In this document: one piece after another, positions 2,684 through 7,791 of the stretch | Position numbering within the stretch: the first letter of the stretch is position 1 | Layout: every line of letters starts with the position of its first letter | Source of the DNA: a bacterium | GTDB lineage: Bacteria; Blakebacterota; Blakebacteria; Blakebacterales; Blakebacteraceae | DNA: 16,323 nucleotides | Direction: 5' to 3' | NCBI GenBank assembly: GCA_025774205.1 | Contig: JALGWK010000036.1 | Span: 1-16,323 of the forward strand | Notes under the pieces: generated by a model | The model's database searches: none | Seen by the model: only the letters and a program-made list of their open reading frames with translations | Told to the model about the DNA's origin: nothing | Position numbers and translations under genes: made by a program

Positions 2684-4231
2684 ATGAGCAACACCGAGAC
2701 ACCGGAAACCACGGCTCCCGCGACCGATGCGGGATCTCCGGGCGACAGGCCCCGGGTGGCGTTATCCCGACTCGGCCCGAAGGTCGGGAAGGAGCCGGTC
2801 GACTGGAAGAGGATCGGATTCATCCTGCTCGGGGTGGGACTCTTCCTTCTGGTCTATTTCGCGCCGGTTCCGGCCGACGCCATCGATCCCCAGGGAGAGG
2901 TCTTTCCCCTGACCAAGGAGGGGAAGGCCGCCCTGGCGCTCTTTTTCCTGGCCGCGACCTGGTGGGTCACCGAAGTCGTCCCGATCGGCGTAACGAGCAT
3001 CACCATTGGTGTCGTCCAGGCCCTCTTCCTGATCCGGCCGGCCGAGGACGCCTTCACCGATTTTATGGTCCCTTCGGTCTGGTTCATCTTCGGCTCCCTC
3101 ATCTTCGGCATGGTCTTCACCCAGACCGGGCTGACCCGGCGCCTGGCCTACAAGATGCTCTCCCTGGTGGGTGAGCGAACGAGCATGATCTACCTCGGCT
3201 GTTTCGTCATGACTGCCGCCCTCACCCTGGTGATGGCGCATACGGCGGTGGCGGCAACAGTCTTCCCCCTCTTCATGGCGATCTATGCCCTCTACACCGA
3301 TGAGCCCGGACCGACGAAGTTCGGGAAAGGGCTCTTCATGGGGATGGCCTTCGTGGCGGGCGCGGGGAGCATCATCACCCTGCTCGGCGCGGCCCGGGGC
3401 GCGGTAGCGATCGGATTTTTCAACGACATCACCGGACATTCGGTCAGCTTCTTCCAGTTGACCTGGTACATGCTCCCGGTCGGGGCGCTGATGGTGATCC
3501 TGCTCTGGGGCTTCTTCATGCTCTGGTACCGGCCGGAAAAGAAGACCATTCCCGGTCTCCGTGCGCGAGTAGACCGCCTGTATGCCAGTCTTGGCCCGGT
3601 CAGCCGCAATGAGATCCTCGCTCTCGTCCTGGTCTTCGGCACCATCCTGGTACTGAGTCTCAGGGAATTCATCCCGGCTCTCGAAGCGTTCGACAAGGCT
3701 GCCATCATCCTCGTCTCCACCGTGCTCTTCTTCCTCTTCAGGATCCTCCGCCTGGAGGACCTGGAGGGGACCTCCTGGAACATCATCCTCCTCTTCGGCG
3801 GAGCCATGAGCATCGGATTCTGCCTGTGGGAGACGGGAACCGCCGAGTGGCTCGCCATCCACTGGCTGAGCATGTTCCTCGACACGCCGCCGCTGATCTT
3901 CATCCTGGGGATTTCGGTCTTCGTGCTGGTGATGACTAATGTGATCATGAACGTGGCCGCTATCGCCATCACGATGCCGGTGGCGCTCACCATCGCGCCC
4001 TACGTCGGCGTCTCGTCCGAGGTGATCCTGTTCGCCTGTCTGGTGACCGCCGGCATGCCTTTCCTCCTGCTCGTGGGCGCGGCTCCCAACGCCATCGCCC
4101 ACACCAGCAACCAGTTCACCACCGGAGAATTCTTCAAGGCGGGTATTCCGGCCAGCATCCTGCTCATCGCGGTGCTGGCGCTCTTCCTGGCGATCATCTG
4201 GCCGGCGATGGGGATGCCGGTCCTGCAATAA
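2684..4231 (+). CDS. SLC13/DASS-family anion transporter
   Basis: This 515-residue polytopic membrane protein has about 45 hydrophilic N-terminal residues rich in Thr, Pro and Ala. It then has many hydrophobic segments arranged as the two inverted halves seen in divalent anion:sodium symporters. Family-like landmarks are FGSLIFGMVF, the loop GAAPNAIAHTSNQFTTGEF (465-483) and the helix ends near 185 and 418. The paired SNT motifs that bind sodium and substrate in characterised members are altered. The first reads AHT (185-187) and the second TNV (418-420), and the usual GTPPN reads GAAPN. The substrate could therefore be sulfate, a di- or tricarboxylate or something else, and sodium coupling is not assured. 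It is the last gene of the sensor operon. No clear terminator lies in the 31 bases before the convergent ABC permease gene. Confidence 0.87.
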   Translation: MSNTETPETTAPATDAGSPGDRPRVALSRLGPKVGKEPVDWKRIGFILLGVGLFLLVYFAPVPADAIDPQGEVFPLTKEGKAALALFFLAATWWVTEVVPIGVTSITIGVVQALFLIRPAEDAFTDFMVPSVWFIFGSLIFGMVFTQTGLTRRLAYKMLSLVGERTSMIYLGCFVMTAALTLVMAHTAVAATVFPLFMAIYALYTDEPGPTKFGKGLFMGMAFVAGAGSIITLLGAARGAVAIGFFNDITGHSVSFFQLTWYMLPVGALMVILLWGFFMLWYRPEKKTIPGLRARVDRLYASLGPVSRNEILALVLVFGTILVLSLREFIPALEAFDKAAIILVSTVLFFLFRILRLEDLEGTSWNIILLFGGAMSIGFCLWETGTAEWLAIHWLSMFLDTPPLIFILGISVFVLVMTNVIMNVAAIAITMPVALTIAPYVGVSSEVILFACLVTAGMPFLLLVGAAPNAIAHTSNQFTTGEFFKAGIPASILLIAVLALFLAIIWPAMGMPVLQ

Positions 4232-4262
4232 TTATTTAGTCGTCCTGGCGCGTGACAGGGCG

Positions 4263-5624
4263 CTAGGCCTGCCGCATCCACCTGACGATCTCCGGCAGAC
4301 TGGGCCGCTTCCCGTACATGAGTGAACCCAGCCGGAAGAGTTTGGCTCCGAACTTGAGGCAGAACCAGGTGAAGATTATCAGGATCCCGAAGGTCAGCGG
4401 AATCTCCCACCACGGCACCTGTCCGGATGGCAATCGCAGCATCATGGTCACCGGGCTTGTCAGCGGGAACCAGGCGAAAATGCGCGACAGGATGCTGAGC
4501 GGTTCAGCCAGGATCGCCACTATCGCAAACATCGGCAACCAGACTGGAATTGTGAAAATGATGGATAGCTGCTGGCTCTCCTTCATGGTGTTCCCGAGGC
4601 TTCCGGCGCCCGCCATGAGACTTGCTATCATCAGATAACCGACCAGGAAGTACCCGAGACAGAGCAGGAAGAGATCGACCGGTATCGTGAATCCGGGCAG
4701 GATATCCTGACTGACGAGTCCCACCAGGAGCAGGAATCCCATACCGAGCCAGACCAGGATCTGGAGGAGCCCGCAGGCTCCGAGACCGAGAACCTTTCCG
4801 AACATCAGTTCATCGGTCGTCACGCTCGAGAGAAGGAGTTCCATGACGCGGTTCTCCTTCTCTTCAGCCACCCCCTGCAGGAGAAAACTGCCGCCCATCA
4901 TGATCGAGATCAGCAGCAGGAGCGAGAAAGCGTATGGCAGCGCGACTTTGCGGAGCTCCGAGGCGATACCGGTCTGCTCGAACTCATCGCTGGCGGCGGA
5001 GATCTCATAGGCCATGTAATTCATCGGGGAGAGGATCCGGTTCTCGATCGCCGGATCGACCGGCTGCTCGTTGAGCAGACTGAGCAGCAGTGCCCGCCGG
5101 AGAAGTCGCTCCGCCGGACCGCTCCCGGCGTCATCATCCAGCAAACTCTTCGACTGACTGAACCCCCAGACCCGTCCGGTCTCGAGATAATCGGCCGATA
5201 TGATGAGAGCGGCGTCAAGATCGCCCCGTCGGGTCGTTTCCCTGGCTGAATCGGCATCAGCCATGATGATCAGGCTGAGGGTACCGCTGAAGCCGGTGAA
5301 GGTCTGTGATACGAGATCGAGCGTGGAGGGATTGACCCTGGTCAGGCGATCGGAGAGCAGCTGCAGTGCCTCCTCGCTCAGAACTTCCCTGCTCCGTGCC
5401 TCGACCTCGAGGTCGGTCAGGATCGAATGGTCGAGCACGCCGCTGGAATCCACCACGGCGATGACCCGGGGTGTGATCTTCAATGCCGTTTTGGCGGTGG
5501 TGAGACCGATGATGCCGAACATGGCAGCATAGAGGAGTGGTATTCCGAAGATGGTGAACAGATAAGCCGGTCGCTTGATCGTCACGGAGAGTTCGTGGGC
5601 GGCGATGAGGAGGGCACGCTTCAT
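4263..5624 (-). CDS. ABC-2 type exporter permease (NatB-like)
   Basis: This 453-residue permease has one N-terminal transmembrane helix (about 20-42). A large extracytoplasmic domain (about 45-225) follows, then five or six helices. The amphipathic motif EEKENRVMELLLSS (254-267), before helix 3, is typical of the NatB/ABC-2 class. The start is ATG 5624, preceded by GGAGG. It overlaps the ATPase stop as ATGA, the usual layout of a two-gene export operon. An upstream in-frame ATG at 5672 would run deep into the ATPase gene and is rejected. NatAB-type systems export ions, drugs or peptides; nothing here tells which. The permease itself looks intact although its ATPase partner is frameshifted. 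Confidence 0.9.
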   Translation of the reverse strand: MKRALLIAAHELSVTIKRPAYLFTIFGIPLLYAAMFGIIGLTTAKTALKITPRVIAVVDSSGVLDHSILTDLEVEARSREVLSEEALQLLSDRLTRVNPSTLDLVSQTFTGFSGTLSLIIMADADSARETTRRGDLDAALIISADYLETGRVWGFSQSKSLLDDDAGSGPAERLLRRALLLSLLNEQPVDPAIENRILSPMNYMAYEISAASDEFEQTGIASELRKVALPYAFSLLLLISIMMGGSFLLQGVAEEKENRVMELLLSSVTTDELMFGKVLGLGACGLLQILVWLGMGFLLLVGLVSQDILPGFTIPVDLFLLCLGYFLVGYLMIASLMAGAGSLGNTMKESQQLSIIFTIPVWLPMFAIVAILAEPLSILSRIFAWFPLTSPVTMMLRLPSGQVPWWEIPLTFGILIIFTWFCLKFGAKLFRLGSLMYGKRPSLPEIVRWMRQA

Positions 5625-6449
5625 GACGCCACCTCCTCGAACTTCTCCGGCTCCACCTCGCCCCTCAGCCACACTTTTTTCAGGCGACCGGGGGCGGCGT
5701 TCTCATCGACCCGGATTACCTGGGCCAGACCACGGGCGGTCACTTCGTCATTGACGAAGACCGCATTATCGGCATGCTCCTTCTTGATCTCATCCAGTCG
5801 GCCGTAGAGCACACGCTTGCCGCGGCTGATCATGAACACCCGATCGGCCAGCGCCTCCACCTGGGCCATCTGGTGGGTGGAGAGGATCACGGTCTTCCCC
5901 TTCCGGCGCATCTCGGAGATGAACTCCTTGGAACTCCTTGATGACCTGGATGTTGAGCGGGTCGAGTCCGCTGAACGGTTCATCGAGAATGACAAGATCG
6001 GGATCGTGAAGCAGGGTCAGGACGATCTGGGCTTTCTGCTGCATCCCCTTGCTCAGCTCCTCGACCTTCTTCTTCTCCCACTCCCCCAGGTCGACGCGGC
6101 CGAGCCACTCCCGGGCACGCTCGAGCGAAGTTTCCTTGTCGAGTCCGTGCAGCCGGCCGAAATAGGCGAGGACCGCCCCCAGCTTCTGTTTCTTGTAGAG
6201 CCCCCGTTCCTCCGGCAGGTAACCGATCCGGTGCTTGAGATCGGGTGTGATCATCTCACCGTCGAAGGTGATCGTCCCCGAGTCGGGCCGGGTGATATCC
6301 ATCAGCATGCGGATCAGGGTGGTCTTACCGGCGCCGTTCGGCCCGAGGAGCGCGAACACCTGCCCGCCCCGGGCATCGAGCGAAACCCCGTCGACCGCCC
6401 TGACGTCTCCGTATACCTTGACCGCGTTTTCGACCGAGACCTTGATCAT
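5621..6449 (-). pseudogene. ABC exporter ATPase (NatA-like), frameshifted by a 10-bp duplication
   Basis: From ATG 6449 the frame encodes Walker A GPNGAGKT (36-43), the Q-loop region, signature LSKGMQQK (132-139), Walker B LVILDEP (152-158) and D-loop SGLDP. It then reads IKEF and leaves frame at the duplicated decamer 5921-5940, stopping at 5790. The other frame carries the missing part: KGKTVILSTHQMAQVEALADR with the switch His (H-loop), and a C-terminal extension like those of NatA-type ATPases. It ends at 5621, overlapping the permease start. Deleting one decamer gives 819 bases, exactly 272 residues plus stop. As written, the product is 219 residues and lacks the H-loop, so it should not hydrolyse ATP normally. 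The lesion may be real, phase-variable or an assembly error. Confidence 0.92.
5921..5940. repeat. Perfect 10-bp tandem duplication causing a frameshift
   Basis: The decamer GAACTCCTTG occurs twice in immediate succession. On the coding (minus) strand one copy reads CAAGGAGTTC and encodes part of IKEF. The second copy adds 10 bases, shifting the frame by one just before the segment that carries the H-loop. Everything before and after the repeat reads as normal ATPase sequence. Confidence 0.97.
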
Positions 6450-6645
6450 ACAGTGTCTCCAGCTCTCCTGCCCGGCCAGCGCTTGGGCCGGGGCGGTTAT
6501 GACTGCCTCCGGTGTCCGAATGAATTAATATACGTGCTATCAGGACGTTCTCTTCAACAGGAGAATGTCATGTTCACAATTGGACAACAATGGACGCGTG
6601 ATCGTCCGCCGATCACCACCGCCCTCACCACAAAGGAACCAGGCC
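6450..6645. promoter_or_regulatory. Divergent promoter region with an inverted repeat
   Basis: These 196 bases separate the minus-strand ABC genes from rocD and should hold both promoters. A perfect 7-bp inverted repeat CCCGGCC/GGCCGGG (6471-6477 and 6486-6492, 8-base loop) lies near the ABC start and could be an operator or an RNA hairpin. The AT-rich patch TTAATATAC (6525-6533) is the best place for a -10 element in either direction, but I could not pair it with a convincing -35 element. AGGAG at 6559-6563 is followed 6 bases later by an ATG that opens a frame unrelated to rocD. Confidence 0.4.
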
Positions 6646-7791
6646 GTGACCCGACCTACTCTTTCAGCAGCCGACTGCATCACCATCGAGAACGAACTGG
6701 GCGCCCACAACTACCACCCCCTCGATGTCATCATCTCCCGCGCTGAGGGTATCTGGGTCTGGGACGTGGAAGGGAAGAAGTATCTCGATTTCCTGGCCGC
6801 TTACTCCGCCGTCAACCAGGGGCATTGTCATCCGCGGATCCGGGAAGCCGCAACGGCGCAGATGGAACAGGTCACCCTCACCAGCCGGGCGTTCCGCAAC
6901 GACCAGCTCCCCCTCCTCTACCGGAAGCTCCACGACATGACCGGCATGGAGGTCTCCCTGCCGATGAACTCGGGGATCGAGGCCGGCAAACAGGAGATCA
7001 TCGTCTGCAGTGATAACTTCCACGGGCGCACCATCAGCATCATATCCGCTTCCAGTGAACCGCAGTACCGGGAGGGATTCGGCCCCTTCACCCCCGGCTT
7101 CGTGATGACCGACTACGGTGATATCGAAGCCCTCGAAGCGGCTATCACCCCTGACACCTGTGCCTTCGTGGTGGAACCGATCCAGGGGGAGGCGGGTATC
7201 CGCATCCCGCCTGACGGCTACCTCGAAGCCGCCGGGAACCTCTGCCGGGAACACAACGTCCTTCTGATCTTCGATGAAATCCAGTCGGGCCTGGGACGCT
7301 GCGGCAAACTATTCGCCTATCAGTACGAGCAGGTCGAGCCCGACGGGCTGATCGTCGGCAAGGCGCTCTCGGGAGGTTACTACCCGGTTTCGGCGTTTCT
7401 GGCAGGCAAAGAGGTGATGGATGTGTTCACTCCCGGTGACCATGGCAGCACCTTCGGCGGCAATCCACTCGGCTGCGCTATCGCCGTGGCGGCGCTCGAA
7501 GTGATCGAAGAGGAACAGCTGGCCGAACGGAGCGCCGAACTGGGAGCCTGGTTCCTCGAGCAGCTGCGCACCATCGATAACGCGCACATCGTGGAGATCA
7601 GGGGACGGGGCCTCTTCATCGGACTGGAACTGGACCAACCTGCACGACCGTACTGCGAGGCGATGCAGGAAGAGGGTCTCCTCTGCAAGGAGACCCACGA
7701 GAACGTCATCAGGTTCGCGCCCCCACTGGTGATCGGGAAGGACGACCTCGAGTGGGCCTTCGGGAAGATAAACGGAGTACTCACTCCCTGA
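6646..7791 (+). CDS. rocD: Ornithine--oxo-acid aminotransferase with an internal in-frame gap
   Basis: This is a PLP-dependent class III aminotransferase that converts ornithine and 2-oxoglutarate to glutamate semialdehyde and glutamate. Recognition rests on GAHNYHPLDVIISRAEG, FLAAYSAVNQGHCHP, NFHGRT, VEPIQGEAGI, the PLP-ring Asp in FDEIQSGLGR, the Schiff-base Lys K239 in VGKALSGGYYPVS, and HGSTFGGNPLG. I chose GTG 6646 because AAAGGA lies 8 bases upstream. The upstream in-frame ATG at 6565 adds 27 residues that do not look like the family and has poor spacing. From GTG it has 381 residues; family members have about 400. The shortfall sits at one point: LPMNSGIEAG (105-114) joins directly to KQEIIV. 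Relatives have about 20 more residues there, forming the helix that follows the PLP-phosphate turn. The frame is kept, but activity is doubtful. Confidence 0.93.
   Translation: MTRPTLSAADCITIENELGAHNYHPLDVIISRAEGIWVWDVEGKKYLDFLAAYSAVNQGHCHPRIREAATAQMEQVTLTSRAFRNDQLPLLYRKLHDMTGMEVSLPMNSGIEAGKQEIIVCSDNFHGRTISIISASSEPQYREGFGPFTPGFVMTDYGDIEALEAAITPDTCAFVVEPIQGEAGIRIPPDGYLEAAGNLCREHNVLLIFDEIQSGLGRCGKLFAYQYEQVEPDGLIVGKALSGGYYPVSAFLAGKEVMDVFTPGDHGSTFGGNPLGCAIAVAALEVIEEEQLAERSAELGAWFLEQLRTIDNAHIVEIRGRGLFIGLELDQPARPYCEAMQEEGLLCKETHENVIRFAPPLVIGKDDLEWAFGKINGVLTP

Follow-up and report, generated by a model that had tools for sequence, protein, structure and literature searches.

A frame-breaking 10-bp tandem duplication in an ABC exporter gene of a metagenome-assembled genome is very probably an assembly error

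An exact 10-bp tandem duplication at positions 5921-5940 breaks an ABC ATPase gene in the window, a stretch of 16,323 nucleotides that is the complete contig C102 of a metagenome-assembled genome (MAG; G000), and it is very probably a local error of a fragmented short-read metagenome assembly. This explanation is favoured because similar lesions occur genome-wide, one of them breaking the only valS gene found. Most likely, the duplication exists in the deposited sequence but not in the organism, and the locus is that of an ordinary DrrAB/NatAB-like exporter. The MAG comprises 3.09 Mb in 527 contigs, with 85.9% completeness and 4.8% contamination, and contains the locus once.

The unit GAACTCCTTG is present exactly twice at 5921-5940 (period 10, 2.0 copies, 100% match), and reads as two copies of CAAGGAGTTC on the coding strand, which is the minus strand. 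The resulting +10 frameshift falls between the Walker B/D-loop and the H-loop of the ATPase. The 5′ part of the gene, on the minus strand at 5790-6449, is read from 6449 to 5790 as 219 codons that match ABC_tran (PF00005, E=1e-29) and DrrA-like profiles of the ABC-2 type; the correct frame is gone after ...NIQVIKEF, with the break point after ...GLDPLNIQVIKEF, between the D-loop and the H-loop (STHQM), and the part ends out of frame past the duplication. The 3′ part continues in another frame from the H-loop STHQM on (5621-6016, minus strand, read from 6016 to 5621), and neither piece in the window gave a Pfam match to DrrA1-3_C. With a single copy of the 10-mer, the gene would be a 272-aa frame ending in an ATGA overlap with the start of the neighbouring permease gene. 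The repeat, the frame break, and the 272-residue reading were all described in the first-pass annotation and are borne out here. Second-order Markov simulations of the same sequences produced 0-1 exact tandem repeats with a unit of at least 10 per ∼308 kb, and since the expectation per window-sized sequence is well under 0.1, the duplication is not a chance repeat.

Besides the MAG, a close version of the locus turned up in just two genomes, G001 from the same genus and G003 from the same family; the collections searched contain one genome per species and yielded no further assembly of this species. Comparison of the locus with these close relatives, as the first-pass annotation had proposed, showed a single copy of the 10-mer in both, with the ATPase open at 302 aa in G001 (locus L030) and 306 aa in G003 (locus L031), and with a C-terminal DrrA1-3_C domain (PF13732) in each. 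The two relatives thereby share the gene order, ATGA overlap, and domains of DrrAB/NatAB-like ABC-2 exporters (PF00005 and PF13732 in the ATPase, PF12698 in the permease), whereas in the window the ATPase is broken by the frameshift and its C-terminal domain is missing 34 residues. These residues correspond to a second lesion, an exact, clean, in-frame loss of 102 bp relative to G001 at the junction 5638/5639 on the minus strand, which removes 34 codons of DrrA1-3_C, a segment present in G001 and with a counterpart in G003. Even the single-copy product of 272 aa would accordingly be 34 residues too short.

A third lesion lies in the adjacent ornithine aminotransferase-like gene (6565-7791, plus strand), an open frame in which a clean in-frame loss of 60 bp near 6972-6983 takes 20 residues from the conserved GAEAVETA region. 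The duplication and both losses fall within 1.35 kb of the window, which contradicts the earlier remark that further decay was not visible and removes the premise of one precise and recent lesion. Elsewhere in the ∼14 kb alignment with G001, no gene of the window carries a comparable lesion; other sizeable indels lie between genes or at their ends, except for a 12-bp loss on the side of G001. The G001 ATPase (L030:5217-5260) lacks 12 bp, or four residues including the A-loop aromatic position, by comparison with both the window and G003. The G003 aminotransferase (L031:1-974) lacks about 35 residues at nearly the same conserved place as the window's, and the full region is present only in G001.

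Lesions of this kind are frequent across the MAG. A census of isolated exact two-copy tandem duplications with a unit of at least 10 was made on about 88 MAG contigs in three batches, with masked and repeated bases excluded. The MAG had 25 such duplications with units of 10-70 bp in 563 kb (44/Mb), compared with 6 in 1.00 Mb of controls (p about 5e-7 for the excess), the controls being 56 loci of other genomes, mostly MAGs (2 in 603 kb), and stretches of two closed genomes (4 in 400 kb). Frameshifting duplications numbered 15 in the MAG and 1 in the controls (p about 2e-6), and their share in the MAG, 15 of 25 (60%), is close to the two thirds (∼67%) expected without selection; some of the census repeats with units that are multiples of three are probably natural protein repeats. 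Homology flanking the duplicated units is almost nil. In G001, a MAG of the same genus, the excess is weaker, with 5 duplications in 263 kb (19/Mb), four of them frameshifting. Extrapolation from the sample suggests on the order of a hundred such duplications genome-wide, many of them within genes. Among the frameshifting units of the MAG, 13 are of length 3n+1 and 2 of length 3n+2, while all four in G001 are 3n+2, a post hoc pattern that is possibly due to chance.

Searching the pieces that flank each lesion separately allowed the split genes to be named, and they include constrained core genes. Duplications of 10, 22, and 40 bp split genes for KDO transferase (L096), pyruvate phosphate dikinase (PPDK; L122), and RecJ (L140), respectively, and one of 13 bp splits a C69 dipeptidase gene (L188), identified from one side. 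Clean deletions relative to G001 were also found, of 106 bp (L154), 82 bp (L267), and 92 bp (L231). The 106-bp deletion is frameshifting and cuts the gene for valine-tRNA ligase (C340:5342; pieces L154:5303-5659 and 3057-5546). Searching with TIGR00422 gave no second valS in the MAG and recovered valS of G001 as a single open frame of 899 aa. No living cell can do without valS; this lesion, at least, cannot therefore be truly fixed in the organism, unless the unassembled part of the genome contains an intact copy.

The assembly itself bears marks of contig joining. Runs of 4, 28, and 39 Ns in the sampled MAG contigs mark joins whose gaps were estimated as small, and an exact 94-bp end overlap is common to two contigs (L134:3754-3847 and L199:1-94), which suggests that a k-mer assembler was used. 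The shared 94-bp end contains a tandem CACAGCCATC duplication. Errors of a similar kind have been described in deposited MAGs by Chen et al. 2020 (PMC7111523), who reported local assembly errors that not a single read supports, a problem suspected to be most marked with IDBA-UD, and duplicate sequence left behind where Ns had been put in despite overlapping flanks. Their cases, in which the consensus was unsupported by reads, resemble the present ones in having short exact duplicates at joins and damaged protein-coding genes, and differ in that the supposed joins here contain no Ns and include both duplications and clean deletions. A literature search on tandem duplication at contig ends found nothing directly useful.

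From the lesions themselves, their excess, their blindness to reading frame, the damage to core genes, and the N-gaps, we infer a joining error as the source of these particular lesions. At points of thin coverage, adjacent contigs would either overlap by too few bases for the assembler to notice or be separated by a small real gap, and paired-read scaffolding could then butt them together at the wrong spacing. An unrecognised overlap would become an exact tandem duplication, of 10 bp at this site, and an unrecognised gap closed to zero would become a clean deletion, as of 102 bp and 60 bp in the window. The observed sizes, 10-70 bp for duplications and 60-106 bp for deletions, fit the overlap and gap cases, respectively. 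Several observations speak against this mechanism: both deletions in the window preserve the frame (a 1 in 9 chance), the 3n+1 bias of the MAG units (13 vs 2) is not predicted by it, two of the supposed joins would be only about 280 bp apart, and G003, which has a MEGAHIT-like contig name, also lacks about 35 aminotransferase residues. MEGAHIT output is not normally scaffolded. With an assembly error as the preferred explanation, the ATPase-permease pair probably forms an undamaged, ordinary two-gene ABC-2 exporter in the living cell, just as it does in the relatives. Frames of this MAG that are broken at exact short tandem duplications should not be taken as pseudogenes or switches without read support, and the same caution extends to its clean deletions of 60-110 bp.

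Assembly error was one of three candidates named in the first-pass annotation, and it is the one that the genome-wide lesions and the damaged core genes favour; the other two, a true loss of function and a slippage-based switch, are disfavoured. The ABC-2 permease (4263-5624, minus strand; 453 aa, PF12698), whose start codon overlaps the stop codon of the ATPase as ATGA, is indeed intact, yet this does not point to a switch or a very new mutation as had been argued, being equally expected under an assembly error. A real pseudogenisation, in which the dominant strain lost the exporter ATPase through the 10-bp duplication and perhaps the 102-bp deletion while the permease is undecayed, is unlikely. 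In its favour, the lesions cluster in two neighbouring genes, that of the ATPase and the one beside it, on an otherwise largely intact contig, and retention of the gene in both relatives would allow for a recent loss. The same class of lesion nevertheless breaks core genes elsewhere in the MAG, including its only detected valS, and the explanation is disfavoured because no cell could bear all such lesions as fixed losses.

Genuine hypermutation of the lineage, owing for instance to defective flap or end processing, with many real short tandem duplications and deletions caught by the assembly, is a very doubtful source of the lesions. The strong excess in G000 and the weaker one in its genus mate G001 (19/Mb) are consistent with such hypermutation, as is the scarcity of homology flanking the duplicated units. 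Against it stand the frame-blind damage to core genes such as valS and the fact that G001 is also a MAG, with a contig name that says scaffold; duplications and deletions are, moreover, both accounted for by known assembly behaviour. There is similarly little chance that much of the excess is real mutation drawn from a mixed population of a Zixibacteria-like lineage with an exceptional duplication and deletion rate.

A slippage-based on/off switch of the exporter is highly improbable: an exact tandem repeat within a coding frame, with copy number setting the frame and with an intact partner gene, does resemble simple-sequence-repeat phase variation, but the 10-bp unit is present in two copies only, G001 and G003 show neither a second copy nor a repeat tract there, the same ATPase gene carries the second lesion of 102 bp, and the same lesion class occurs genome-wide in many unrelated core genes. 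Slippage switches usually use long tracts of short units, unlike a two-copy 10-bp repeat. A search of the literature on phase variation returned nothing directly useful. Tolerated +1 frameshifting was considered as the source of the 3n+1 bias and rejected, the ratio being a post hoc 13:2 in the MAG and 0:4 in G001, and as a mechanism it fails because it leaves the deletions unexplained. A 6-bp match beside the 4-N gap in L203 was likewise considered as a contig overlap and dropped, as its translated context suggests a native short repeat.
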